This document shows, one piece after another, positions 2,810-63,561 of a stretch of DNA of 64,000 bases. Every line of letters begins with the position of its first letter. Position 1 is the stretch's first letter. Origin of the DNA: Terriglobia bacterium (GTDB taxonomy: Bacteria; Acidobacteriota; Terriglobia; JAJPHL01); assembly GCA_021325275.1 (NCBI GenBank), contig JAJPHL010000063.1, positions 62,001 through 126,000 on the forward strand, given 5' to 3'. A program made the position numbers and the translations under genes. Below the pieces are notes generated by a model. It saw only the letters and a list, made by a program, of their open reading frames with translations. It was not told the origin of the DNA and did no database searches.

Positions 2810-3601
2810 ATGACGAAGAGAACAAGAGACGCCCGGAGCAGCGCCAGGGCCGCCGGCGGCGTTCAAGTGCTGCACAAGACACTCGACATCCTGGAGCAAC
2901 TGAAGGCCGAGCACGGCGGCGCCCGGCTCGCCGACTTGTCTCGCATCGTGGACATGCCCAAGCCCACCGTGCACCGCATTCTCTCGACGCTCGAGGGCCG
3001 CGGCTATCTCGATCGCGCGCCCGACGGGGCGTATCGTGTCGCCAAAAAGTTTTATGCCATGCGTCGCGACGAGCCGATCGAACAGCAAGTGCTGCGCGCC
3101 GCCGAGCCGCTGATCGAGAAACTGGTCGCGCAGTGCAAGGAAACGGTGAACATGGGCCTCCTCGACGCCGGTGAAGTCGTGGTGATTCACACGCTGGAAA
3201 GCCCGCAAGCCGTGCGCATGTCGTCGAAGGTGGGGAACCGCCGCCATCTGCATTCCACCGCGCTCGGCAAAGTGATGCTCGCCGGATTGCCCGATCGCGA
3301 CGTGCTGCGTTTGATCAAAATGAAGGGTCTGCCGCGCCTAACGTCCACGACGCTGGTGACCAAGCAATCGGTGATGGGAGAAATCCAGCGCGTGCGCGAG
3401 CAGGGATTCGCGCTCGATAATCAGGAAAACGAAATCGAAGGGCGTTGCATCGGCGCGCCGATCCTGGGACCGGATCACTCGGTGGTGGCGGCGCTGAGCA
3501 TCTCGGGTCCCGTGTTTCGCATGGATCTGGCGCGCGCCCATTCGCTGGTCGGCGTCCTGCAAAACACGTGCGCGGCGATTTCACGCGCCATTTCGAGCTG
3601 A
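2810..3601 (+). CDS. IclR-family transcriptional regulator
   Basis: A 263-aa protein with an N-terminal winged helix (about residues 15-80; LADLSRIVDMPKPTVHRILS is the helix-turn-helix) and a C-terminal GAF-like IclR effector domain with the familiar HSTALGKVMLA segment. IclR proteins sense small metabolites, often sugar acids, and here the divergent neighbour is a uronate isomerase, so a KdgR-like role is plausible. The ATG at 2810 is preferred over the upstream in-frame ATG at 2780 because the wHTH-family N-terminus and the predicted promoter both fit the shorter form. The stop abuts the stop of the convergent gene at 3602. Confidence 0.9.
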   Translation: MTKRTRDARSSARAAGGVQVLHKTLDILEQLKAEHGGARLADLSRIVDMPKPTVHRILSTLEGRGYLDRAPDGAYRVAKKFYAMRRDEPIEQQVLRAAEPLIEKLVAQCKETVNMGLLDAGEVVVIHTLESPQAVRMSSKVGNRRHLHSTALGKVMLAGLPDRDVLRLIKMKGLPRLTSTTLVTKQSVMGEIQRVREQGFALDNQENEIEGRCIGAPILGPDHSVVAALSISGPVFRMDLARAHSLVGVLQNTCAAISRAISS

Positions 3602-8310: not shown

Positions 8311-9765
8311 TTATCCGCGATAGACCACACGGATTCCTTTTCGCCAATCGTCGTTAATTCCCAGGCGCGTCACCGGAATTTCCCGCGAAAAATACTTCAG
8401 TACCGTTTCGTTCGCGGCGTGCAGGCGGATCGCTGGGAAGACAAGCCAAAGCAGCGGGGGATCGGGCGAAATCTGGCGGCCGGCAAAGAATCCGTGCGAC
8501 TGAAAATCGCCGCGCTCCAAATGCCGGCGGACGCGCATCCAATAGTCGAGGGCTTGCAGCGGAAGGCGCGTGTCTTCTTCGGCTTTCAACTCAATCACCG
8601 CAAGACGTCCGGCGTTGGTGATCGCCAACAAGTCCATGATCCCGCGCGTGCGTCCCGCTTCCAATAGCACCTGCGAGTACACCGGACTTCCGGCTACTTC
8701 CAGCGCCAGAGGCGAAACGTCCGCTTTCACAAGCGACTCCATCCAGCGTTCCGCGGAGCGCGTGTATAGAGGATGGCGGCGATCGGGCGTGTCGGGCGTG
8801 CGAATCCGCGCGACCTCAGACATCGCCGCGTCGATCACCGTGGCGCCGATCGTGTTGGCGTGCGCCACTTCCAATCCGCGATAACGAAGCGACAATTCGC
8901 CTTGCGGCGTGATTTCTTCCTCGACGCCGGGAAACGACGCGATGGCGCGAAGCTTCTCGCGCGCTTCCGGCGCCACGCTCGCGGTGATGCGCGGAGGGCG
9001 CAACTCGGTGGCGAGATTGCCGAAGTCCGCGGGGTCGATTTCCGCCAGCGGTTCAACCGATGTTTGTGCGGCGTCGCTCGGCGGCATCGGAAAAAGCCGA
9101 TACGCCGCGCGGTCGTGATTGAGGTACAGCAAACGCCGCGCGGTCACCGCCGCCGATCTTTCCGGAACAAAGAGGCACAAGCCCGCCGCATGTACGTGAT
9201 CGAGCCACAACAGACCATCGGTGAGAATCGACGACGCGGCGCTCTCTTGTTCGGCCTCGGATACGGCGATGGCCGCCCATGACGTCCCGGCGCGTGTAAC
9301 GAGCGCCCGCACGTAGTGTTCGGAAAACGCGCGGTGCAGATCGCGCTCGGCGGTCAGCTTGTCGATCGTCCATCCGGGGAATTGACGCGTCAGCAGCGCG
9401 CGGAAGCGTTCGCGGAAGTTCTTGCGGCGCAGGTTGCGGTCGAGATCCGCGCCGCGCCGCGCGGTATCGGAAATCGCGATTTCGCCTTCGCGTCCGCCGA
9501 ATTTGCGGATGACCAACAGCAACGCGCGGGCTTGCACACGCGCCGAAACCACGCGCCGCGCAATGGTGTGATGCTCGTCCCACGCTTCGAGAAGCAACGC
9601 GCTGTTGTCGATGCGCAGATCGAAACGGCCAGTCAGGATGGCCAGCGGCTCGCCTGAGTCTTCGCGCAGCATCGGCTGCTTGCAGGTGGCGATGAAATCG
9701 AGAATCTGCTCGCGCAGGGCCGCGAGAGAGGGCGCAAGCTCCGGACTCGCGCCCGCCTCAGGCAT
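8311..9765 (-). CDS. PD-(D/E)XK nuclease-like protein of unknown role
   Basis: A 484-aa protein whose C-terminal third contains GIMDLLAITNAGRLAVIELKA, matching the PD-(D/E)XK endonuclease core: D378, then E392-x-K394. The family uses these residues to bind metal and cut DNA or RNA. The first ~330 residues match nothing I recognise; they contain an Arg-rich stretch (RRNLRRKNFRERFRALLTRQ-like, residues ~113-133). The gene overlaps the end of the ABC ATPase gene by 8 bp and is the last gene of the exporter operon, an odd place for a nuclease. It could be a repair enzyme, a restriction-like protein or a catalytically silent fold. Confidence 0.75.
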   Translation of the reverse strand: MPEAGASPELAPSLAALREQILDFIATCKQPMLREDSGEPLAILTGRFDLRIDNSALLLEAWDEHHTIARRVVSARVQARALLLVIRKFGGREGEIAISDTARRGADLDRNLRRKNFRERFRALLTRQFPGWTIDKLTAERDLHRAFSEHYVRALVTRAGTSWAAIAVSEAEQESAASSILTDGLLWLDHVHAAGLCLFVPERSAAVTARRLLYLNHDRAAYRLFPMPPSDAAQTSVEPLAEIDPADFGNLATELRPPRITASVAPEAREKLRAIASFPGVEEEITPQGELSLRYRGLEVAHANTIGATVIDAAMSEVARIRTPDTPDRRHPLYTRSAERWMESLVKADVSPLALEVAGSPVYSQVLLEAGRTRGIMDLLAITNAGRLAVIELKAEEDTRLPLQALDYWMRVRRHLERGDFQSHGFFAGRQISPDPPLLWLVFPAIRLHAANETVLKYFSREIPVTRLGINDDWRKGIRVVYRG

Positions 9766-10462
9766 GCGATCCCGCCGTCGCGGCGTCGTCGACGAGCACG
9801 CCTTTGTCGAGGTGATAGCGCGTGTGGGCGTACTGCGCGGCGCGCGGATCGTGCGTCACAAGCACGATGGTCTTGCCGAAATCTTTGTTGAGCTTCGCGA
9901 AAATCTCCATGACCTCTTGCGCGGAGTGCGCGTCCAGATCGCCCGTAGGCTCGTCGGCCAGAATCAGCGTGGGATCGATCACGATCGACCGCGCGATGGC
10001 GACACGTTGCTCTTGTCCGCCCGAGAGCTGGCGCGGATAATGCTTCACGCGATCGCCCAATCCCACCAGGGTCAGCGCCGTCAACACCCGCCGGTTGCGA
10101 TCGGCCTTGCCGATCTTGGTGAGCAGCAGCGGCAACTCGACGTTCTCGAATGCGGTGAGCACGGGAATCAAATTGAATGTTTGAAACACATAACCGACGT
10201 AACGATTTCGCCAGCGCGCCAGCTCGCTTTCGCTCATCGACCCCGGCTCGGCGCCGAGCACGCGCAGCACGCCGCCGGTGGGACGATCGATGCCGGCCAT
10301 CATGTTCAACAGCGTCGTTTTGCCGGAACCGGATGGTCCCATGAGCGCGACGAAGTCACCTTCGGAAATGTTCAGCGACACGCCGTCGAGCGCCACAACT
10401 TCTTGTGTGTCGCGCTTGAAGGCTTTGCGTACACTCTGTGCTTCAATGAGGATTTTGCTCAT
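9758..10462 (-). CDS. ABC transporter ATP-binding protein, MacB/LolD type
   Basis: A 234-aa ABC ATPase. Visible motifs are Walker [10 protein letters not shown] (about residue 42), Q-loop [20 protein letters not shown], the signature [13 protein letters not shown] (second Q replaced by E compared with the usual LSGGQQQ), Walker [13 protein letters not shown] and the switch His in VTHD. The [18 protein letters not shown] segment is typical of MacB/LolD exporters. Its permeases and HlyD adaptor lie upstream in the same operon, beyond the kinase gene. It drives ATP-powered export or mechanotransmission across the inner membrane; the cargo is unknown. Confidence 0.92.
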
Positions 10463-10477
10463 AGCCGTCCGTCTATC

Positions 10478-13237
10478 TTACGGATTTGCCTCTCGCCGCA
10501 CAATATCCATGTCGCTTTCGTTGACGCTGACAAGCGCGCGCTGATGCGCGAAGTCGAAATCCATGAGCGCCTGCGGTCCGAACTCAGTGAAAGCCGAAAG
10601 CAGCACCTGCGACGCGTACGATACCGGCAGCGCGCCGTTGCCGCCGTTCACCACGACCGATTGCAACTGCGGCGGCGCGAGACTGGTGAAGAAAATCACG
10701 CGTGTGGGATCGGGCGCGAAAAACGGCGCGCGCGCCGGGCCCGTGTAAATGGGCTGCGGCTCGCCGCCTTCGGCGGGAACCACGAGAATCCGCTGCGGCG
10801 CACCGACTCTAGGTGGCGTCTCGAACAAGCCGATCCATTTTCCGTCGCTCGAGAAACCAATGGAGTTCACGTTCTGCGCGACAGTGCGTTCCTTGCCGGA
10901 AGCCGGATCAAACACCGCCACATCGATTCGCATATCAGCGCCGAATTCATCGATCAAGTATTGTCCCGCCGGCGAAAAGGCCACAAACTTAGTGCTGTGT
11001 CCCGGCGACGGAATCGGCGTGTTGCGACCGCTTTCGAGATCGACCACACCGGCCTGAAACGTTCCCGTGGCGCGCGATTCATATCCGATGCGCTTGCCGT
11101 CAGGCGACCAATGGATTGCTTTCACGAGCGCCGGAGTATCGACACGCTGCACATGACCGGAGTCGCGATTCAGCAGCATCAGGTCGCCTAACGTGGTGCC
11201 GGACCATTGTGGACGCACAAACGCCACGCGGCTGCCGTCGGGAGAAAGCGACGCTTCGGAAACGAGTGTGTCGTCGGCCAGGGGCCGCGTGCCGGATTCG
11301 TCCACCAAATGCAAGCGCGCGCGATGTCGCGCGCTGACGTAGTAAATCCATCCATTCGGATCGAGCGCAGGCGACTGATCTTCGCCCGTGGAAAACGTAA
11401 CTTGCTTCGGTTCACCGCCGGAAACCGGAATGCGCCAGAGGTTGACCAGCCCGTCGTGAATCGCGCCGTAGTAAACCCATCCATCGAGCGAGACGGCGGC
11501 GGGTTGGGAAACCAGATCCAGCGACGCCAGGGTGCGAGGAGGGGAACTTCCGTCGGCCGCCGCGGCCATGAGTCGCGGCGCGTGCAGTTCCGTGTACGCT
11601 TCCACGTAGACCACTTGCTTGCCGTCGCGCGTCCACACCGGGTACATGTTCGGCTGGCCTTCCACCCTGGCGATTCTGCGCGGGCTCTCGCCGTGCGCGC
11701 CGCCGACAAAGAGCGCGAGGCTGGTGCCGGAATCCGCGCGCGAAAACGCCAACTGCGATCCATCCGGCGACCACGCACCGTAGAGCGCGTCCGCGGCAAC
11801 GCGCCGTGCCTCGCCGCCGAGCGCCGGAATCTCCCACAGGTCGCCGGGGTTGCGTCGCGTGAAAAGAATGCGCGATCCGTCGGCGGAAAATCGCGGATAC
11901 GCGTTGGTGTCGGTGGTCTTGGTGAGCTGCGTGGCCTCGCCGCCCTGCGTGAGCGCGACGTACACTTGATTGTCGCCGGAGATGAACGTGATCAGTTTGC
12001 CGTCGGGCGAAAGCGCCGGTTGCGAAATCGACTTGTGTAGATGGGTCACCGGATACGTTTGCTCTTGCGGCGACAGTTTCGTTTGATTCATCGCCTGATA
12101 GAGCAGCGCTGCGGCCAAGGCGATCGCCGCCGCGAGTGAAATCATCGTGAGCCATGTGGGCAGATGCCCCGGACGCGGAGGCGGTACAGGAAGCGGCGCT
12201 GGAACCGCGCGGTCTCCGGATTGTGTGGGCTGCGCCGGCAGCACCGGCGGCGCGATTTGCCCCGCCGTCTGGGTCAGCGAGGGCGGCGGGACGGCGCCGG
12301 TGGTCATTCCGGCGGACAGGCGCCGCTCGGCGCGCCGCAGGTCCACCAGCAAATCGGCGGCGGACTGGTAGCGGTCCTCGCGATCCTTCTCCATCAATTT
12401 TTCGACAACCGACTCGATGTCGGAGGGAATCGACATGTCGTATTGGCGAAGCGGTGGCGCGGGATGATGCGTGATGGCGAAAAGCGCGTCGACGTTGTTT
12501 CCGGAAAACGCCTTGCGTCCCGCCAGACATTCGTAGATCACCGAGCCCAGCGAAAAAAGATCGCTGCGTGGATCGATTTCCTCGCTGCGCGCTTGCTCCG
12601 GCGACATGTAGTGAATCGTGCCGAGAATAAATCCGGGAACCGTGAGCGCCTCAAGCGTGGCGCCGTCCGCTTCCTTCTCGGCGTCGGGACGGCGCAGCTT
12701 GGCGATTCCGAAGTCGAGCAGCTTGGTTTGTCCTTCGGTGGAGATGATGATGTTTTCCGGCTTGATGTCGCGATGCACCACGCCGGCCGCGTGCGCGCGC
12801 TGCAACGCTTCGGCCAACGTGATGGACATTTTGATGGTGGCCTTGGTGTTCATGGCGCCGGAATCGAGCTTGCGCCGGAGCGTTTCGCCCTCCACCAATT
12901 CCATGGCGATGAAGAGACGTCCTTGCCACTCGCCCACATCGTAGATGGTGACTATGCCGGGATGATTCAGCGCGGAAACCGTGCGCGCTTCGCGCAGAAA
13001 ACGCGTACGCGGATCGGCGGAGCGCTGGCGCGACGCATCGGTGGGCTGCGCCTTTTCGTCGGCGGCGCTGCGCAGGAGTTTCTCCCACGTTTCGATTGGC
13101 GCGGGACTCGCTGCCATCATCACCTTCAGCGCCACCTGCCGGCCGAGTCGCGTGTCCTCCGCGCGATACACTTCGCCCATGCCGCCCGCGCCCAACTTGG
13201 CGGTGACCCGATAGTGCGAAATGATCGTTCCGATCAT
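10478..13237 (-). CDS. Membrane Ser/Thr protein kinase with TolB-like beta-propeller sensor
   Basis: A 919-aa protein. An N-terminal Hanks-type kinase (residues 8-275) shows GAGGMGEVYRAED, the ATP-binding Lys in VALKVM (K38), HRDIKPENI (D157), DFG (175-177) and GTIHYMSPEQ. About 28 extra residues lie between the VALK lysine and the alphaC region. A Pro-rich linker and one membrane helix (about 365-388) lead to an outer region of repeated PD40/TolB-like blades (LSPDGKLITFISGD, WSPDGSQLAFSRAD, SPDGSRVAFV). The start overlaps the S23 gene stop (ATGA). The propeller probably senses an extracytoplasmic ligand or tunes the adjacent exporter. This architecture is frequent in Acidobacteriota. Confidence 0.92.
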   Translation of the reverse strand: MIGTIISHYRVTAKLGAGGMGEVYRAEDTRLGRQVALKVMMAASPAPIETWEKLLRSAADEKAQPTDASRQRSADPRTRFLREARTVSALNHPGIVTIYDVGEWQGRLFIAMELVEGETLRRKLDSGAMNTKATIKMSITLAEALQRAHAAGVVHRDIKPENIIISTEGQTKLLDFGIAKLRRPDAEKEADGATLEALTVPGFILGTIHYMSPEQARSEEIDPRSDLFSLGSVIYECLAGRKAFSGNNVDALFAITHHPAPPLRQYDMSIPSDIESVVEKLMEKDREDRYQSAADLLVDLRRAERRLSAGMTTGAVPPPSLTQTAGQIAPPVLPAQPTQSGDRAVPAPLPVPPPRPGHLPTWLTMISLAAAIALAAALLYQAMNQTKLSPQEQTYPVTHLHKSISQPALSPDGKLITFISGDNQVYVALTQGGEATQLTKTTDTNAYPRFSADGSRILFTRRNPGDLWEIPALGGEARRVAADALYGAWSPDGSQLAFSRADSGTSLALFVGGAHGESPRRIARVEGQPNMYPVWTRDGKQVVYVEAYTELHAPRLMAAAADGSSPPRTLASLDLVSQPAAVSLDGWVYYGAIHDGLVNLWRIPVSGGEPKQVTFSTGEDQSPALDPNGWIYYVSARHRARLHLVDESGTRPLADDTLVSEASLSPDGSRVAFVRPQWSGTTLGDLMLLNRDSGHVQRVDTPALVKAIHWSPDGKRIGYESRATGTFQAGVVDLESGRNTPIPSPGHSTKFVAFSPAGQYLIDEFGADMRIDVAVFDPASGKERTVAQNVNSIGFSSDGKWIGLFETPPRVGAPQRILVVPAEGGEPQPIYTGPARAPFFAPDPTRVIFFTSLAPPQLQSVVVNGGNGALPVSYASQVLLSAFTEFGPQALMDFDFAHQRALVSVNESDMDIVRREANP

Positions 13238-13638
13238 AAGGCAGTGCTGAGTGCTGAGTGCTGAGTGCTGAGTTTCTTTCTCTCGACCGACGCTCGGAGT
13301 CCTCCGAGAATGCGAGCAACTTCCTCAGCCAGTTTGGAAAGTTCGCGAAACGTCCCTTCCTCGATATAACCGACGTCCATGGCAACGTACAAGTGCGATC
13401 TTACCTCCGCGCACGATGCCTTTGCAGTAGACAGAAACTGGTGGAATTCGCCTGGTCGATGTCGCTCAAACCCCTCCGCGATATTCGCCATGATCGACAC
13501 CGCTGCCCGCTGAAGCTGGTTGCACAGACCATAGTCCTTGGCTAACGCACCCTTCCTGCTGGCGAGGTACACGGCTTTCGTCAACTGCCTTGCCCTTTGC
13601 CACGCAATCAAATCCTCGAATCGCTCAGTTCTCGGCAT
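13234..13638 (-). CDS. S23-type four-helix-bundle protein, copy 1, inside heptamer-array cassette
   Basis: A 134-aa protein of the S23/bAvd-like four-helix-bundle family, with the signature [14 protein letters not shown] near the start, [15 protein letters not shown] in the middle and SCAEVRSHLYVAMD later. The ATG at 13638 follows AGAAGG; an upstream GTG is less likely. The family was first found in ORFs of 23S rRNA intervening sequences; the cellular role is not settled. The last residues (STQHSALST-) are encoded by the flanking heptamer array, and the stop overlaps the kinase start. It sits between the HlyD gene and the kinase gene, interrupting an exporter operon, which suggests insertion. 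It is related to but clearly different from copy 2. Confidence 0.88.
   Translation of the reverse strand: MPRTERFEDLIAWQRARQLTKAVYLASRKGALAKDYGLCNQLQRAAVSIMANIAEGFERHRPGEFHQFLSTAKASCAEVRSHLYVAMDVGYIEEGTFRELSKLAEEVARILGGLRASVERKKLSTQHSALSTAL
13243..13273. repeat. Heptamer array GCTGAGT, 3' side of S23 copy 1
   Basis: About four tandem copies of the 7-nt unit GCTGAGT (plus strand). They encode the tail of S23 copy 1 and end 5 bp before the kinase start. The unit is the reverse complement of the array at 13649-13770, so the two arrays are inverted ends around the gene. Confidence 0.9.
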
Positions 13639-13648
13639 AGCCTTCTTT

Positions 13649-13770
13649 CTCAGCACTCAGGACTCAGCACTCAGGACTCAGGACTCAGGACTCAGCACTC
13701 AGGACTCAGGACTCAGCACTCAGGACTCAGCACTCAGCACTCAGCACTCAGCACTCAGCACTCAGCACTA
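13649..13770. repeat. Heptamer array ACTCAGC/ACTCAGG, 5' side of S23 copy 1
   Basis: About 17 tandem heptamers alternating between ACTCAGC and ACTCAGG (plus strand). The array reaches exactly to the TAG stop codon of the HlyD gene (13768-13770). It fills the gap between the HlyD gene and the S23 gene. Confidence 0.93.
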
Positions 13771-15099
13771 TCTCGTCCTGACCCGCTGACCATTCTGCAA
13801 CGCTTGCGGATTTCCCGTGACCACCGATTCCGATCCGCTGAGTCCCGCCGTGACGCGAACACTCTCGCCCGTGATGTCGCCGAGCGTGACGGGCTTGAAG
13901 ACCGCGTGTCCGTCTTCCACCACGGCGACGACCGACTTGCCGTCTGACTGAAACACGGCGCTCTTCGGAATCAACATTTCGGTCGATTTCGTCTCGCCGC
14001 CCGCGGGCGAAAGAAAATTCACCTTGGCGTTCATCTCGGGGCGGAGAAGTCCGTCCGGGTTTAGGACTTTCACCTTCACTTGCACGGTACCCTTTTGACG
14101 ATTCGCTTCCGGCGAGATTTCGAAGACCGTTGCTTTGTATTTCTTGTCGGGATACGCGTCGGCGACCACCGTGCATTCACCGTGCTCCTTCACGCGCGCA
14201 AAATCGTTTTGATTGATGTCCAGTTCCACCAGCAAGTCGTTGAGATCGGCCAGCGATACCACCGACGATTTCGCGCCGCGGTCGCCGACAAAACTGGTCG
14301 TGACCATTTCGCCTTTCTCCACCAGCCGATCGAGCACCGTGCCGTCGACGGGTGAGCGAATCTCGGTGGCGTCCAGTTGCGTTTGCGCGTAATCGAGCTG
14401 GCCTTTGGCTTGCACCATCTGCGCGCGTGCCGTCTCGATGTCCTCGGCGCGATTACCGATGCGTGCCAGATCGTACGTTTTCACCGACGACTGCCAATTC
14501 GCTCTGGCCGTGTTGTAGTTGGCTTGCGCGTTGTCGAAATCGCTCTTGCTGATGAGGTCGTCGTGCACCAGACTCGCACTACGGTCGAGTTGCACTTTGG
14601 CGACGTCCATCGACGCCTTGGCCTGATCCATTTGCGCCTTGGCGCGATCGATCTCCTCGGGGCGCGAGCCGTTCTTCATTTTCTCGTACGCCGCGGCCAT
14701 GGCATCGTAGTTGCCCTTGGCTTGTAGCAGATTCGCTTTGTACTCGGGGTCTTCTAAGCGAACGAGGATTTGGTCGCGTTTTACGAAGTCGCCTTTTTCG
14801 ACGCCGATCCAAAGCACTTTGCCGATGATTTTCGAACTGACCTCGATTTTGTGGTGCGCCACGATGTAACCGCTCGCGACAAGCACGGCGGCGGCCTCGT
14901 GAACTTCCATGCCTACGACGCGCGCGGTGGTGACTTCGGGACTGCGCAGCGTGTTCACTCCGGCCCATCCCGCGAGCACCACGAGCGCGACGATCACCAT
15001 GAACCACAGCCAGCGTGGCGTGCGTCCGCGACCCGACTCGCGATGTTGTTCGTCGATCTTGAGGCTTTCGAGATGTTCGTTCAGACTTTGGTTCGGCAT
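13768..15099 (-). CDS. HlyD/MacA-type periplasmic adaptor (membrane fusion protein)
   Basis: A 443-aa protein with a short cytosolic N-terminus, one membrane helix (about residues 29-50, WLWFMVIVALVVLAGW), a biotinyl-lipoyl half-motif (ASGYIVAHHKIEVSSKIIGK), a long alpha-helical hairpin rich in Ala and Gln (AKAQMDQAKASMDVAKVQLD), the second half of the lipoyl domain (ATEIRSPVDGTVLDRLVEKG) and beta-barrel domains at the C-terminus. It links inner-membrane exporter parts to an outer-membrane channel. It starts 14 bp after the permease stop. Its stop TAG is the first base triplet at the edge of the heptamer array. Confidence 0.93.
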   Translation of the reverse strand: MPNQSLNEHLESLKIDEQHRESGRGRTPRWLWFMVIVALVVLAGWAGVNTLRSPEVTTARVVGMEVHEAAAVLVASGYIVAHHKIEVSSKIIGKVLWIGVEKGDFVKRDQILVRLEDPEYKANLLQAKGNYDAMAAAYEKMKNGSRPEEIDRAKAQMDQAKASMDVAKVQLDRSASLVHDDLISKSDFDNAQANYNTARANWQSSVKTYDLARIGNRAEDIETARAQMVQAKGQLDYAQTQLDATEIRSPVDGTVLDRLVEKGEMVTTSFVGDRGAKSSVVSLADLNDLLVELDINQNDFARVKEHGECTVVADAYPDKKYKATVFEISPEANRQKGTVQVKVKVLNPDGLLRPEMNAKVNFLSPAGGETKSTEMLIPKSAVFQSDGKSVVAVVEDGHAVFKPVTLGDITGESVRVTAGLSGSESVVTGNPQALQNGQRVRTR

Positions 15100-15113
15100 G
15101 TCGAGTTATTAGT

Positions 15114-16271
15114 CTACGCTCGCAACGATTGCACAATGGGACGCCGCGCCGCCATCACTGCGGGAAGCAATCCGCCGAACGCGCCCATGAACGCGGCGAA
15201 GCCGATTCCGCTCGCGAGCATCAACGGTGTGATGCGGAATTGAAACGCCAGTTCGGAAAACGTGTTGAAATTCAGTGTACCCGTGGAAATTCCATGCACC
15301 GGTAGCGCGACCAAACATCCCAACGCCCCGCCGACGATGGCCAGCAAAACCGCTTCCATCAGAAACGCCAGCAGCACCGCTTGACGGCGGAATCCGAGCA
15401 CACGCAGCGTTCCAATTTCGCGCGCGCGGTACGCCACTTGCGCGTACATCGCGTTCATCGCCGCGAAACAGGCGCCAACGGACATGATCAGCGCGATGAA
15501 TGTGCCGAGGAAGCGAATGGGCAGGGAGGCGCTGGTCTGTTGATTGAAGTAATCGATTTCGTTGCATGCTTGCAGTTTCAAGCGATTGTCGCTTTCGATG
15601 CGTTTGATCAAGTCGAGGGCCGCGCCCTGGTCGCGCGCGCGAACCAGCATCGAGGAATACGCGGTGCGGCGAAATTCATCCATCACCATGTTGACGTCGG
15701 TCCAGATTTCCGACTCGTACGCGGTGCCTTGGCCGTCGGTGAGTCCCACGACTTGCCATTGCGTGGTCCCTTCGAGCTTTAGGCTTTGTCCGAGAGCCAT
15801 GCCAAAACGTTTCGCCAGCGTGCGGCTGACGATCACTTCATGCAGTCCAGTTTTGAACATGCGGCCATCGACGAGCGTCACTTGTGGACGCAGGAGAATC
15901 CCGGCGGGCGAAACGCCGCGCATGAGGATGTGCGCTTTCTCGCCGCCGGCGCGCGGCAACAGCACGAGCACGAGCAACTCCGCCGATGCCAGCGGCTCGC
16001 CGTGACTATCCTTGGCGACGCCGTCGAGGTACTTGATGGTTTGCGCTTGCTCTCGATCGACTGAGGAGTTCGATTCCACTTGCGATCCTTGGCGGATCAG
16101 CACGAGATTCAGCGGATCGCCAGTGCCGATGAACGCCGACTCGAGTCCGCGTGCGAGCGCCAGCACGGAAATGAAGACGGCCACCGTCGCGGCGACGCTG
16201 AGCACGGCCATGAGCGTGCCGGTGCGACGAACGATGACGCTGCGGAAGTTATATTTGAAAGGGATAGCCAT
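15114..16271 (-). CDS. FtsX/MacB-type ABC transporter permease B
   Basis: A 385-aa permease with one N-terminal helix (GTLMAVLSVAATVAVFISVLA), a periplasmic domain of about 220 residues and three C-terminal helices (about residues 257-280, 305-330, 350-372), the usual FtsX/MacB-like arrangement. The segment YRAREIGTLRVLGFRRQAVL is typical of these permeases. It pairs with permease A to form a heterodimer or a two-permease complex with the ATPase encoded downstream. The heptamer array at 16277-16308 occupies the place where its ribosome-binding site would lie, so translation initiation here may have been changed by that insertion. Confidence 0.92.
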   Translation of the reverse strand: MAIPFKYNFRSVIVRRTGTLMAVLSVAATVAVFISVLALARGLESAFIGTGDPLNLVLIRQGSQVESNSSVDREQAQTIKYLDGVAKDSHGEPLASAELLVLVLLPRAGGEKAHILMRGVSPAGILLRPQVTLVDGRMFKTGLHEVIVSRTLAKRFGMALGQSLKLEGTTQWQVVGLTDGQGTAYESEIWTDVNMVMDEFRRTAYSSMLVRARDQGAALDLIKRIESDNRLKLQACNEIDYFNQQTSASLPIRFLGTFIALIMSVGACFAAMNAMYAQVAYRAREIGTLRVLGFRRQAVLLAFLMEAVLLAIVGGALGCLVALPVHGISTGTLNFNTFSELAFQFRITPLMLASGIGFAAFMGAFGGLLPAVMAARRPIVQSLRA

Positions 16272-16276
16272 CGAGA

Positions 16277-16308
16277 AGTTCCGAGTACCGAGTTCCGAGT
16301 TCCGAGTG
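16277..16308. repeat. Heptamer array TCCGAGT, 3' side of S23 copy 2
   Basis: Four units TCCGAGT, ACCGAGT, TCCGAGT, TCCGAGT (plus strand), just downstream of the S23 copy 2 stop and 6 bp before the permease B start. It is the reverse complement of the array at 16701-16732. Confidence 0.9.
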
Positions 16309-16315
16309 GAACGCG

Positions 16316-16693
16316 CTAGGCCGCCTTCCTGTGCTTTGCAACCACCGTTTGTAGTCCACCGATGATGCGCGACACTTCATTCGTTTGTTGCACCAAATTA
16401 TCGAAATCGCCTTTCGGCAGGTACTCGGCGTCCAATGCTACATAGAGCTGGGACCGAACCTCGGCGCACGACGCTTTGGCCACTACGAGGAAACGGTGGA
16501 AATCAGCCGGGCTACGTCGCTCGAAACCCTCGGCAATATTTGACATTACCGAGACCGCGGCTCGCCGGATTTGATCGCTCAGCCCAAAATCTCTGGCGAA
16601 GGTCCCTCGCTTTGTGGCCCGGTAGATACAGTTCGCCAGACTCCTGGCTCTTTGCCAAGCGATGAGATCCTCGAACTTCTCGACGGTTGCCAT
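16316..16693 (-). CDS. S23-type four-helix-bundle protein, copy 2, inside heptamer-array cassette
   Basis: A 125-aa protein of the S23/bAvd-like family: [19 protein letters not shown] near the start, [18 protein letters not shown] centrally and [14 protein letters not shown] afterwards. It shares these blocks with copy 1 but differs at many other positions, so it is not a recent duplicate. It lies between the two permease genes of one exporter operon and is bounded on both sides by inverted heptamer arrays, with a different unit from copy 1. The ribosome-binding site is weak. A role as cargo of a mobile cassette is an inference. Confidence 0.88.
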
Positions 16694-16700
16694 TGCTTTT

Positions 16701-16732
16701 ACTCGGAACTCGGAACTCGGTACTCGGAACTA
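16701..16732. repeat. Heptamer array ACTCGGA, 5' side of S23 copy 2
   Basis: Four units ACTCGGA, ACTCGGA, ACTCGGT, ACTCGGA followed by ACTA (plus strand). As with the copy 1 cassette, the array ends exactly on the TAG stop codon (16730-16732) of the upstream gene, permease A. Confidence 0.9.
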
Positions 16733-17878
16733 CCCTACATACCTCAACGCTTCCGCAATATTCAGCCTGGACGCGCGATACGCCGGAACCGCGGCCGTGA
16801 TCACGGCGACGGCGACGGCAAGCGCGAGTCCTTCGAGGAGAATCTGCGGCGTCACGTTTAGCGCCGGGAAAAATCCTGCCGTCATGTTGCCCATATTCAC
16901 CGTGCTATAAAGGACGCGCGCGCCCAAACATCCAATCAGCCATCCGGTCAAGGCGATCATGGCCGCTTCGCCGACCAGCAACGTAACGATCAATCCGCTC
17001 GTGAATCCCAGGGACTTCAGGATACCGAACTCGGCGGTGCGCTCGCGAATGCTCATGCCCATGGTCGCGGCCGTGACGAGAAGAATCGTGAATGTGACGA
17101 CGGCGGAAATGCTGGCGACGAGAAGCTTGACGTTGCCCATCATGCCGCTGAAGCTCAAGTTGAATTCTTTCTCAGTCTCGCTTTTCGTCTCCGCCGATGA
17201 ATTGCGGAACATTCCGTCGACGGCGGCGATCACCTTCGGCACATCCTCGCGGCTCTTGGTGAGCACGGAGTACGTTCCCGCGTTGCCGGAGCGGCCATCC
17301 ATCTCGTCGAGATAATCCCAGTGGAAGAACAGCGTGCTTTCGTCAGGCAGATTGGGCGAAGTATACATACCGGCCAGGACCAACTCTGCGTCGACGGGGA
17401 AGATCGTGCCCTTCAGCGTGATGTGGTCGCCGACGTTCCAATGAAAGCGATCGAAGAGCGCTTTTCCGGCGATGGCCGCGTTGCGCTGCGCGATGAAATT
17501 CTGCCGCTGATCGGCGGGCATGGAAAATTCCGGGCGTATGTTCAGGTAATGCTCCGGTTCCACGGCGAACTGCGCGAAAAAGTTCTTCGGCTCGACGTAG
17601 ATTCCGCCGAACCATTGAAACGCGGAGAGGTCTTCGATGCCGGGAACGGCGGCGATGCGTGGCCGATAAGAGATCGGCAGCGATTGTGTGAACGACACGG
17701 CGTGATGCACCATGACGCGCAGATCGCTCTTCGGCGAGGCCGAAGAGAATTCAAACTGATGAAGCACGGCTTGGAGCGTGGTGAGCAGGAACAGCGACGC
17801 CGCGAGGCTCAACACCGTGAGGATGGAGCGCCGCTTGTTTCGCAGCGCATTTTTCCACGCCAGAAGAGCGAACTTCAT
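16730..17878 (-). CDS. FtsX/MacB-type ABC transporter permease A
   Basis: A 382-aa permease starting at the ATG at 17878 (MKFALLAWKNALRNKRRS, the usual N-terminus of this family). An upstream extension of 43 residues in frame is rejected because it overlaps the tRNA promoter and is not hydrophobic. It has one N-terminal helix, a large periplasmic domain, and three C-terminal helices with RERTAEFGILKSLGFTSGL between them. It heads the exporter operon, followed by S23 copy 2, permease B, HlyD, S23 copy 1, kinase and ATPase. Such pairs act in lipoprotein, antibiotic or peptide export; substrate unknown. Confidence 0.92.
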   Translation of the reverse strand: MKFALLAWKNALRNKRRSILTVLSLAASLFLLTTLQAVLHQFEFSSASPKSDLRVMVHHAVSFTQSLPISYRPRIAAVPGIEDLSAFQWFGGIYVEPKNFFAQFAVEPEHYLNIRPEFSMPADQRQNFIAQRNAAIAGKALFDRFHWNVGDHITLKGTIFPVDAELVLAGMYTSPNLPDESTLFFHWDYLDEMDGRSGNAGTYSVLTKSREDVPKVIAAVDGMFRNSSAETKSETEKEFNLSFSGMMGNVKLLVASISAVVTFTILLVTAATMGMSIRERTAEFGILKSLGFTSGLIVTLLVGEAAMIALTGWLIGCLGARVLYSTVNMGNMTAGFFPALNVTPQILLEGLALAVAVAVITAAVPAYRASRLNIAEALRYVG

Positions 17879-20763: not shown

Positions 20764-20864
20764 GAGTTGTTTTTATCTCAAAGCGATCGCGCGCAATAGC
20801 GCTACCTTGAGTGCGTGACGACAGCGAGGAACGTCTCTGTCCAGGGAGCTAAGCGGACGTACGG

Positions 20865-21663
20865 AAAAAAGAAAATGGGTTCCAAGCGACCGCGCAGAGC
20901 GGGCGAAATAGCCTTGGCTTCGGTAACAGTATTCCGCGCATCCGTCCCCGGCGTCTCGCCGGGTAGGCGACCGAGTTTCCTCGTCTTGGCTTCCCCTCTC
21001 CCAGCCACCCTTGCGGGCGGCCTGCCCCCGCATTTTCCGCGGGGATTCAGGATCAGGGTTGTCGTCCGAGGTATCTCCAACGGTTTCGGCGCAGCCTTTC
21101 GACATCGCCGTTCCCCGCCAGATCTTCTCCTGCTCGAACCTCGCCGCCTGCCTTTCGGCCGGCCGCTCGGTGTCCTGAGGGTCGTTACTTGGTCCCGCGC
21201 AGAGCCTTGCGGCCCCACCCGGGCGTCGAGGTTTCCTTGGCGTTCTCCCTAGACCCGGCGCCTTTCAGCTTCCGGTTCGGTATCCGAGCGATCCCTGCGG
21301 TTCCCGTCCACGTCGTTAGCTTTGAACTACGGCTTTTACACCGCCAACCTGAACCAGCCCGCGCTTCTTACCCGGCCTATTCGCCCTGCGCATCGATACG
21401 CTTGGCGCGTCGCCACTTCCCCCTCGACCTGCTCCGCGCTGGTCGTTGACCATTTTCCCTTGCGGGCTTCCGGCTACGCTCACGCGGTCCTACGACATTT
21501 CCCCCAAGTCTACTGCCGGCTCACGGTTTTAAGATGTGCCGGTCTTCGGCAGGTTCCTCTCGATTCCTTCCGAATAGTCGCCCTGCGGCTTCCATCCGGC
21601 TGTTCGGAACCTACTACCTTCGCCGAGAGCTTCTTCCCACTGCTGGGACCTCTCGGAACCCAC
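20865..21663 (-). ncRNA. Large structured RNA candidate, copy 1
   Basis: An element of about 800 nt with no credible protein reading. An 11-bp helix closes it: 20876-20886 pairs with 21652-21662. Hairpins on the minus strand include 20947-20963 (7-bp stem), 21026-21044 (6-bp stem), 21202-21215 (5-bp stem, GCAA loop) and 21260-21269 (GAAA loop). A promoter at 21669-21697 ends 6 nt before the closing helix, and the 3' end runs into a U-tract (20865-20875 on the minus strand). It is alignable over its whole length with copy 2 at 21979-22803. In several stems the non-Watson-Crick pair is G-U on the minus strand but A-C on the plus strand, which fixes the strand. I do not recognise the family. Confidence 0.75.
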
Positions 21664-21978: not shown

Positions 21979-22803
21979 AAATAGAAAATGGGTTCCAAGC
22001 GACCTGGCAGAGCGGGTGAACAGCCTCAGGCTTCGGTAACAGCGTTCCGCGCATCCGTCTCCGGTGTCTCACCGGATAGGCGACCGAGTCTCCTCGTCTT
22101 CGCTTCCCCTCTCCCAACCACCCTTGCGGGCGGCCTGCCCCCGGCTTTTCCCCAGGGATTCAGGATCAGGGTTGTCATCCGAGGTATCTCCAACGGCTTC
22201 GGCGCAGCCTTTCGACATCGCCGTTCCCCGCCAGATCTTCTCCTGCCTGAACCTCGCCGTCTGCCTTTCGGCCGACCGCTCGGTGTCTTAAGGGTCGTCT
22301 CTCGTTCCCACGCAGAGCCTCGCGGCTCCACCCGGGCGTCGAGGTTTCCTTGGCGTTCTCCCTAAACCCGGTGCCTCGCGGCCTCCGGTTCGGTGTCCGG
22401 GCGATCCCCGCAGTTCCCGCTCGCTCCGTTAGCTTTAAACTCCGGGTTTTATCCCGGCGGTGCGAACCAGCCTGCGCTTCTTACCCGGCTCATCGCCCTG
22501 CGTATCGATCCGCCTGGCGCGTCGCCACTTCCTCCCCGACCTGCCCCGCGCTCGACGCTTCACTTTCCACCCTTGCGGGCTTCCAATTCGCCATCCACCC
22601 TTGCGGGCTTCCGGCGGCGCTGACGCGGTCCTGCGCTATTTCCCCTAAGTTCACTGCCGGCTCACTTTTATATGTGCCGGTCTTCGGCAGGTTCCTCTCG
22701 ATTCCTTCCGAATCGTTGCCCTACGGCTTCGATCCGGCTGTTCGGAACCCACTACCTTCGCCGAGAGCTTCTTCCCACTTGCTGGATCTCTCGGAACCCA
22801 CGT
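21979..22803 (-). ncRNA. Large structured RNA candidate, copy 2
   Basis: A second copy, same orientation, about 1.1 kb from copy 1. The 11-bp closing helix is 21989-21999 with 22790-22800. Hairpins homologous to copy 1: 22060-22076 (two compensatory pair changes), 22039-... region conserved, 22139-22157 (one compensatory C-G to G-C change, one G-U on the minus strand), 22315-22328 (loop GCGA instead of GCAA) and 22373-22382 (loop GCGA instead of GAAA). An 18-nt hairpin segment is duplicated (22567-22584 and 22595-22612), adding 28 nt relative to copy 1. A U-rich run follows the 3' end (21979-21988). Promoter at 22807-22835. Confidence 0.75.
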
Positions 22804-63334: not shown

Positions 63335-63342
63335 AAACGAAG

Positions 63343-63413
63343 TCCTGAGTGCTGAGTCCTGAGTGCTGAGTCGTGTTTTTTTTAACTCAGGACTCAGGAC
63401 TCGGCACTCAGGA
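63343..63413. repeat. Inverted heptamer arrays without a gene
   Basis: Left arm 63343-63371 (units CTGAGTG/CTGAGTC) and right arm 63385-63413 are 29 nt each and pair at 27 of 29 positions around a T-rich loop. Same unit as the S23 copy 1 cassette but with no gene between the arms. It begins 8 bp after the regulator's stop and may double as a terminator. The rest of 63335-63561 shows no gene. Confidence 0.88.
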
Positions 63414-63561
63414 TTTCCCGTTGGACTTAGGACCGTAGGCGGTAGCCCGAAGGTACCGTATATTTTCTTGCATGGTTTCTCCTCTTCAGAATAGATGATA
63501 TTACCGATTGTCCCAAAGGCGTCGGAAGGGCTATCGTAAGATACGGAAAAGGAGACTTCTA

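Follow-up and report, generated by a model that had tools for sequence, protein, structure and literature searches.

The window, a 64,000-nt stretch of contig JAJPHL010000063.1 from a Terriglobia bacterium, contains a minus-strand exporter operon that encodes, in order, permease A, permease B, an HlyD-type protein, a protein kinase, and an ABC ATPase. Both S23 genes of the window occupy junctions of this operon, and each lies between tandem heptamer arrays that are inverted to one another. The relevant features are as follows, with 5′ and 3′ arms named in gene orientation.

16730–17872, minus strand: permease A, FtsX-type (PF02687); its stop codon bears element 2
16701–16731, minus strand: element 2, 5′ arm, AGTTCCG units; 31/31 inverted match to the 3′ arm, 31-bp RNA stem
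16316–16693, minus strand: S23 copy 2, 125 aa (PF05635, E 1.6e-36; TIGR02436); PDB relatives 2gsc and 2rld
16277–16307, minus strand: element 2, 3′ arm; 31/31 inverted match, 31-bp RNA stem
15114–16271, minus strand: permease B, MacB/FtsX-type (PF12704, PF02687)
13768–15099, minus strand: HlyD-type fusion protein (PF16576); its stop codon bears element 1
13649–13769, minus strand: element 1, 5′ arm, 17 units of AGTSCTG (an ACTCAGS array); TRF period 7, inverted to 13243–13273
13234–13638, minus strand: S23 copy 1, four-helix-bundle gene (PF05635, E 6.3e-35; TIGR02436)
13243–13273, minus strand: element 1, 3′ arm, 4.4 units, (AGTGCTG)4.4; from tandem and inverted-repeat searches
10478–13237, minus strand: protein kinase with beta-propeller repeats (PF00069, PF07676), downstream of element 1
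9758–10462, minus strand: ABC ATPase, named by its translation
63339–63417, no strand assigned: solo hairpin without S23, element 1 unit family, 13-nt loop, directly after the TGA stop of a gene

The two arms are fully complementary (31/31, 100%) in both cassettes, and the order of a variant unit, AGTACCG, is mirrored between the arms of copy 2. As the first-pass annotation had reported, both S23 genes lie between inverted heptamer arrays and both upstream arrays begin exactly on a TAG stop codon, that of the HlyD gene (13768–13770) and that of the permease gene (16730–16732), with the array supplying the ‘AG’. The C-terminus of copy 1 is translated through its 3′ array, and the copy 1 TGA overlaps the ATG of the next gene. 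The computed RNA fold of element 2 is a 31-bp stem (z = −7.5) with the S23 ORF in its loop.

S23, a small four-helix bundle with PDB relatives 2gsc and 2rld, has to our knowledge no catalytic activity. No DNA- or RNA-cutting or joining enzyme is encoded by the window cassettes. Ortholog comparisons gave dN/dS values of 0.06–0.19 in four or five of the five or six usable cases and 0.64 in one, with four more being dS-saturated; by this measure, the protein appears to be under purifying selection.

The cassette observation in the window is confirmed, and the pattern is general. Inverted repeats scoring at least 14 joined the flanks of 58 of 80 S23 loci from many phyla, picked by similarity to copy 2, versus none of 174 control flank pairs. 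An enlarged sample, made up of the earlier loci and same-class relatives found via the family profile, had arms at 128 of 164 S23 genes versus 10 of 1242 other ORFs in the same loci. These two sets of controls exclude chance. One control ORF with flanking inverted repeats is a RAYT gene with REPs. A further, separate sample, drawn by profile and mainly from a gammaproteobacterium's class, had arms at 33 of 51 S23 genes; many of the unarmed ones there carry a weaker pair or a one-sided array. Paired arms escape detection at about one in five to one in three S23 genes. The doubt raised in the first-pass annotation, that most S23 genes might lack such arrays, is thus not borne out, and the acidobacterial search proposed there proved too narrow a frame for elements spread over many phyla.

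The best 5′-arm period was seven in 112 of 128 cases and eight or nine in 12, while the heptamer itself varies from locus to locus. Between different genomes, S23 identity and arm similarity are correlated (rho 0.316; highest of 500 permutations, 0.113), and the AAAAGGC unit goes with one divergent S23 subfamily in Nostocaceae as well as in this bacterium. Fifteen phyla are intermingled in the S23 tree, with 34 label changes compared with a minimum of 14 and a shuffled mean of 52.6; this agrees with horizontal spread, in a tree that is weakly resolved. Multicopy S23-like genes of one genome (G517) have neither arms nor an Rfam (and so no rRNA) match. No S23 relative was found in phages, and long-loop scans gave no convincing case of a larger cargo gene other than S23 within heptamer arms.

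Filled and empty sites show that the cassette is an insertion unit of arms plus S23. Neither S23 gene is present in the corresponding operons of the relatives sampled. In the 20 relatives whose permease A–permease B junction was read, the two permeases adjoin and no S23 is present, which speaks against a second reservation of the first-pass annotation, that the cassettes are kept at the same sites by descent. A same-order genome (G001) carries a solo AGCTATC hairpin at that very junction. Nostoc plasmids provide reciprocal filled and empty sites at nucleotide resolution. At site 1, between a 441-nt and a 288-nt gene, three plasmids carry arms plus S23 and five are empty, with junctions that read like TTCTAGGTTATG. 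At site 2, the next junction, pNsp_c alone is filled, with a different S23 between GGGAAAA arms, and the other eight plasmids read are empty. Across Nostocaceae chromosomes, the content of one gene junction ranges from an S23 with AGTGCTG arms or one with AAAAGGC arms to other hairpins or next to nothing. A search for target duplication at site 1 returned short TTCTA repeats, which are ambiguous as a target-site duplication, since the final array unit has identical terminal letters. In the G016/G024 genome pair, several ‘empty’ sites turn out to be reduced remnants and may thus reflect loss instead of gain.

Insertions concentrate at gene ends. In 50 of the 77 loci with a clear co-directional upstream gene, the stop codon of that gene fell in the interval −20 to +7 relative to the array start, and this clustering, together with the Nostoc sites, upholds the earlier suggestion of a mobile or once-mobile unit that targets gene ends. 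TAG as a specific target, which the first-pass annotation proposed to test, has to be dropped as all three stop codons are used (TAG 19, TGA 18, TAA 13).

The genome that contains the window (6.86 Mb, 75 contigs) was surveyed by sampled stretches and pattern searches. All of its four S23 genes are armed, with four different heptamers. Arrays of GGTTGCT flank the third and start on the TAG of a histidine-kinase-like gene. A gene-less hairpin family with the unit AAAAGGC was seen first in the sampled sequence; an S23 gene with AAAAGGC arms was therefore sought, and a fourth, distant S23 gene (G000:C15:86352-86639) proved to have exactly these arms. The observation in the first-pass annotation of different units on the same plan consequently extends to four units in this genome, but the units are not peculiar to the exporter operon. 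In 464 kb of the genome, tandem arrays most often have period 7, with 26 cases compared with 0–8 for each of periods 5, 6, and 8–11. Solo families of all four units are dispersed, with 239, 47, 21, and 160 pattern matches (reversed-pattern controls 9, 0, 1, and 0), counts in which S23 arms are included and a single array can match several times. Most arrays are hairpins without S23. When 29 solo hairpins from the sampled portions of four genomes were compared with S23 arms, 23 matched an S23 of their own genome, against six that matched any S23 in the pooled set of other class genomes sampled. A dispersed hairpin family is thus paired with a single-copy S23 gene.

The arrays are also dynamic. 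A comparison of two congeneric genomes (~85% identical DNA) shows sites at which both arms have switched to another unit (G016:C1 sites 38638 and 109858, plus two S23 loci), one hairpin with an inverted loop, and sites where only remnants are left. Of 13 orthologous elements, 4 clearly show the two arms changing in concert, and most of the others have shared arms.

The described elements closest to these are the S23-bearing intervening sequences (IVSs) of 23S rRNA. The Coxiella burnetii IVS (~430 nt) combines an S23 ORF with a terminal stem of 28 bp and with tandem GACAGAT heptamers upstream of the ORF, in numbers that vary between strains, and RNase III excises it from the RNA (PMC4990558). 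The window elements fold on the same plan: the S23 (PF05635) ORF lies in the loop of a terminal-inverted-repeat stem, tandem heptamers precede it, and the sizes are similar. They differ in lying at the ends of protein-coding genes rather than in an rRNA helix (an rRNA match was sought in L001–L003 and L206, and none was found), in having a unit that differs per element, and in having dispersed solo hairpins. The earlier statement that no element of this form had been described consequently holds outside rRNA, in the open-access literature, but overlooks the S23-bearing IVS of Coxiella. Within that literature, which leaves most subscription journals beyond our search, no paper joins S23 genes to inverted heptamer arrays outside rRNA.

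REPIN/RAYT systems (PMC3116915) share another part of the layout, as a single-copy gene lies between inverted repeats that are also dispersed in gene-less form, with each gene having its own repeat family. S23, however, is a four-helix bundle matching PF05635 and not a Y1 transposase (PF01797), and its arms are tandem heptamers rather than single palindromes. Intergenic tandem heptamers are also described as TAACTGA arrays in Beggiatoaceae (PMC4679880) and as GGGAATC arrays in Xanthomonas, where about 70 inverted pairs occur (PMC4692102); they resemble S23 arms, often as inverted pairs in Xanthomonas. Neither paper mentions S23, and exact tandem arms of TAACTGA, GGGAATC, GGGGATT, or GACAGAT were not found among 221 S23 loci. 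A link between these arrays and S23 is at this stage a prediction only. S23-bearing IVSs, the REPIN/RAYT layout, and heptamer arrays in several groups are thus already known; there is a real chance that S23 heptamer cassettes form a class of their own.

A 182-bp hairpin of Nostocales bears on the question of which enzyme moves such elements. On pNPM1, an S23 gene is broken by this hairpin, which contains the Nostoc S23-arm units AGAATTC, AGAAGTC, and AGGAGTC. Similar sequence occurs at 98 places in 43 plasmid records, and ten copies align to sharp ends; neither the hairpin nor the S23 elements match an Rfam family. Three empty sites place the insertion of the hairpin directly before ATAA, with no duplication or loss; read on the other strand, it follows TTAT (TTAT|CAAAC...TTCAA) and ends in TCAA. 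Pairing in its inner stems is kept through two-sided changes at 8 of 58 pairs, with an overall covariation term that is not favourable. Insertion before ATAA without duplication is the manner of IS200/IS605 elements and their MITEs, and on this analogy host Y1/HUH transposases are the foremost candidates for the enzyme that moves the elements.

The same observations invite an alternative in which Y1/HUH transposases of the IS200/IS605 or RAYT type move the hairpins and S23 is a passenger, or a chaperone or repressor of the stem. Besides the shared units and insertion signature of the Nostocales hairpin, RAYT genes have a like layout, with 19 of 22 lying between inverted repeats that are REP palindromes where read. 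The TTAT/ATAA flank was not seen, however, at the S23-bearing insertions of the two Nostoc sites, and two genomes with S23 genes, G003 and G033, gave no Y1_Tnp match (G033 being only 88% complete). RAYT flanks also show no period 7, and RAYT as a general mover is accordingly not supported. We regard this alternative as unlikely, though deserving of attention. The arrays might instead be regulatory or terminator hairpins born by replication slippage and kept by selection, with S23 as a resident, non-mobile RNA-binding regulator. Hairpins do occur at gene ends, in some cases with a loop that contains T-runs (as at window 63341–63413), and expansions of heptamer arrays are also seen within coding sequence where no S23 is present (L358). 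This reading is weakened by the presence and absence of whole cassettes at orthologous sites, by the restriction of each S23 to one unit family, and by the recurrence of the same S23–unit pairs in distant phyla (AAAAGGC in this bacterium and Nostocaceae), and we consider it improbable.

The Avd protein of diversity-generating retroelements is a relative of the S23 fold, and a weak match to PF22296 (bAvd) could suggest that S23 genes are Avd-like accessory parts of a diversity-generating or other reverse-transcriptase element. That match falls below the cut-off, the flanking operon genes (exporter and kinase genes) include no reverse transcriptase, the adjacent reverse transcriptase and template repeat that such an element should have were not found, and PADLOC finds nothing; we give this idea very little credence.

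The explanation we prefer, and consider probable as a whole while well short of certain, is that each cassette is one insertion element with inverted arrays of the same heptamer family at the ends of an S23 gene. Such an element would land in intergenic junctions, on the stop codon of the co-directional gene upstream or no more than ~20 nt away from it, a position at which insertion is tolerated. The operon transcript of the element would form a long stem that carries the S23 ORF in its loop, as in the 23S-rRNA IVS, and by analogy with Coxiella the stem is probably trimmed by RNase III. The most likely task of the S23 protein is to recognise the heptamer stem of its own element and to promote the spread of that stem, a role in mobility suggested by association only. 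Copies that lost or never had S23 would spread as solo hairpins, giving one S23 ‘master’ per hairpin family. The arrays may grow, shrink, and homogenise across both arms through slippage and stem-templated copying. We read the window cassettes as the protein-operon counterpart of the IVS elements, with a RAYT/REPIN-like layout. A wider proposal, which we put forward tentatively as a possibility somewhat short of even, is a pan-bacterial class of selfish elements. Its small four-helix-bundle protein, not itself an enzyme, would recognise, build, or spread the heptamer stems of its own element; 23S-rRNA IVSs would then be a special case of landing site, and many bacterial heptamer arrays that now lack an explanation would be footprints of the class.

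We know of no function of S23 proteins beyond sitting in rRNA intervening sequences, and of no agreed origin for the heptamer arrays of cyanobacteria, Beggiatoaceae, and xanthomonads. The general link between S23 genes and inverted heptamer arrays offers a common, testable explanation for both. The two S23 genes of the window are copies of a widespread, little-noticed bacterial insertion element, and together these data point to an insertion element that has no recognised recombinase and lands repeatedly at gene ends inside operons.

Arrays of ACTCAGC, the heptamer flanking S23 copy 1 of the window, traverse the start of a coding sequence (locus L070, about 3480-3560; L352, L358, L360), with one frame reading STQHSAL, and they do so too in genomes that lack S23 at this site. 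Two stretches of the window about 1.1 kb apart (20815-21252 and 21988-22365) are alike, and their translations are GSKRPRRAGEIALASVT and GSKRPGRAGEQPQASVT.

The following genes and hairpins were located in other genomes:
L255:13692-14169 (genome G027), RAYT-like gene between REP palindromes
G517:C1:1415307-1422824 and 6182-95000 (loci L398-L400), copies of a distant S23-like gene
L325:1132-1313, 182-bp structured hairpin element, and 98 places in Nostocales plasmids

The RAYT-like gene and its palindromes form a system separate from the S23 elements, in which G027 is rich. In the 1.54-Mb genome G517, the S23-like gene occurs in about ten near-identical, clustered copies, around which neither arms nor a nearby rRNA match was found. 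The 182-bp hairpin, for which there is no Rfam family, has exact ends, targets ATAA without duplication, and interrupts S23 and RarA genes.

A further dispersed hairpin type (CTCTGCGCCTCTGTGG / CCACAGAGGCACAGAG) is present in GCA_021325275.1 and Nostocaceae (L035:14458-14557; L348, L352, L354), and no S23 gene for it was found. Finally, a heptamer hairpin has its loop in opposite orientations in two species of one genus (L229:13145-13318 in G016 versus L239:13113-13281 in G024), and the hairpin arms may therefore act as inversion sites.
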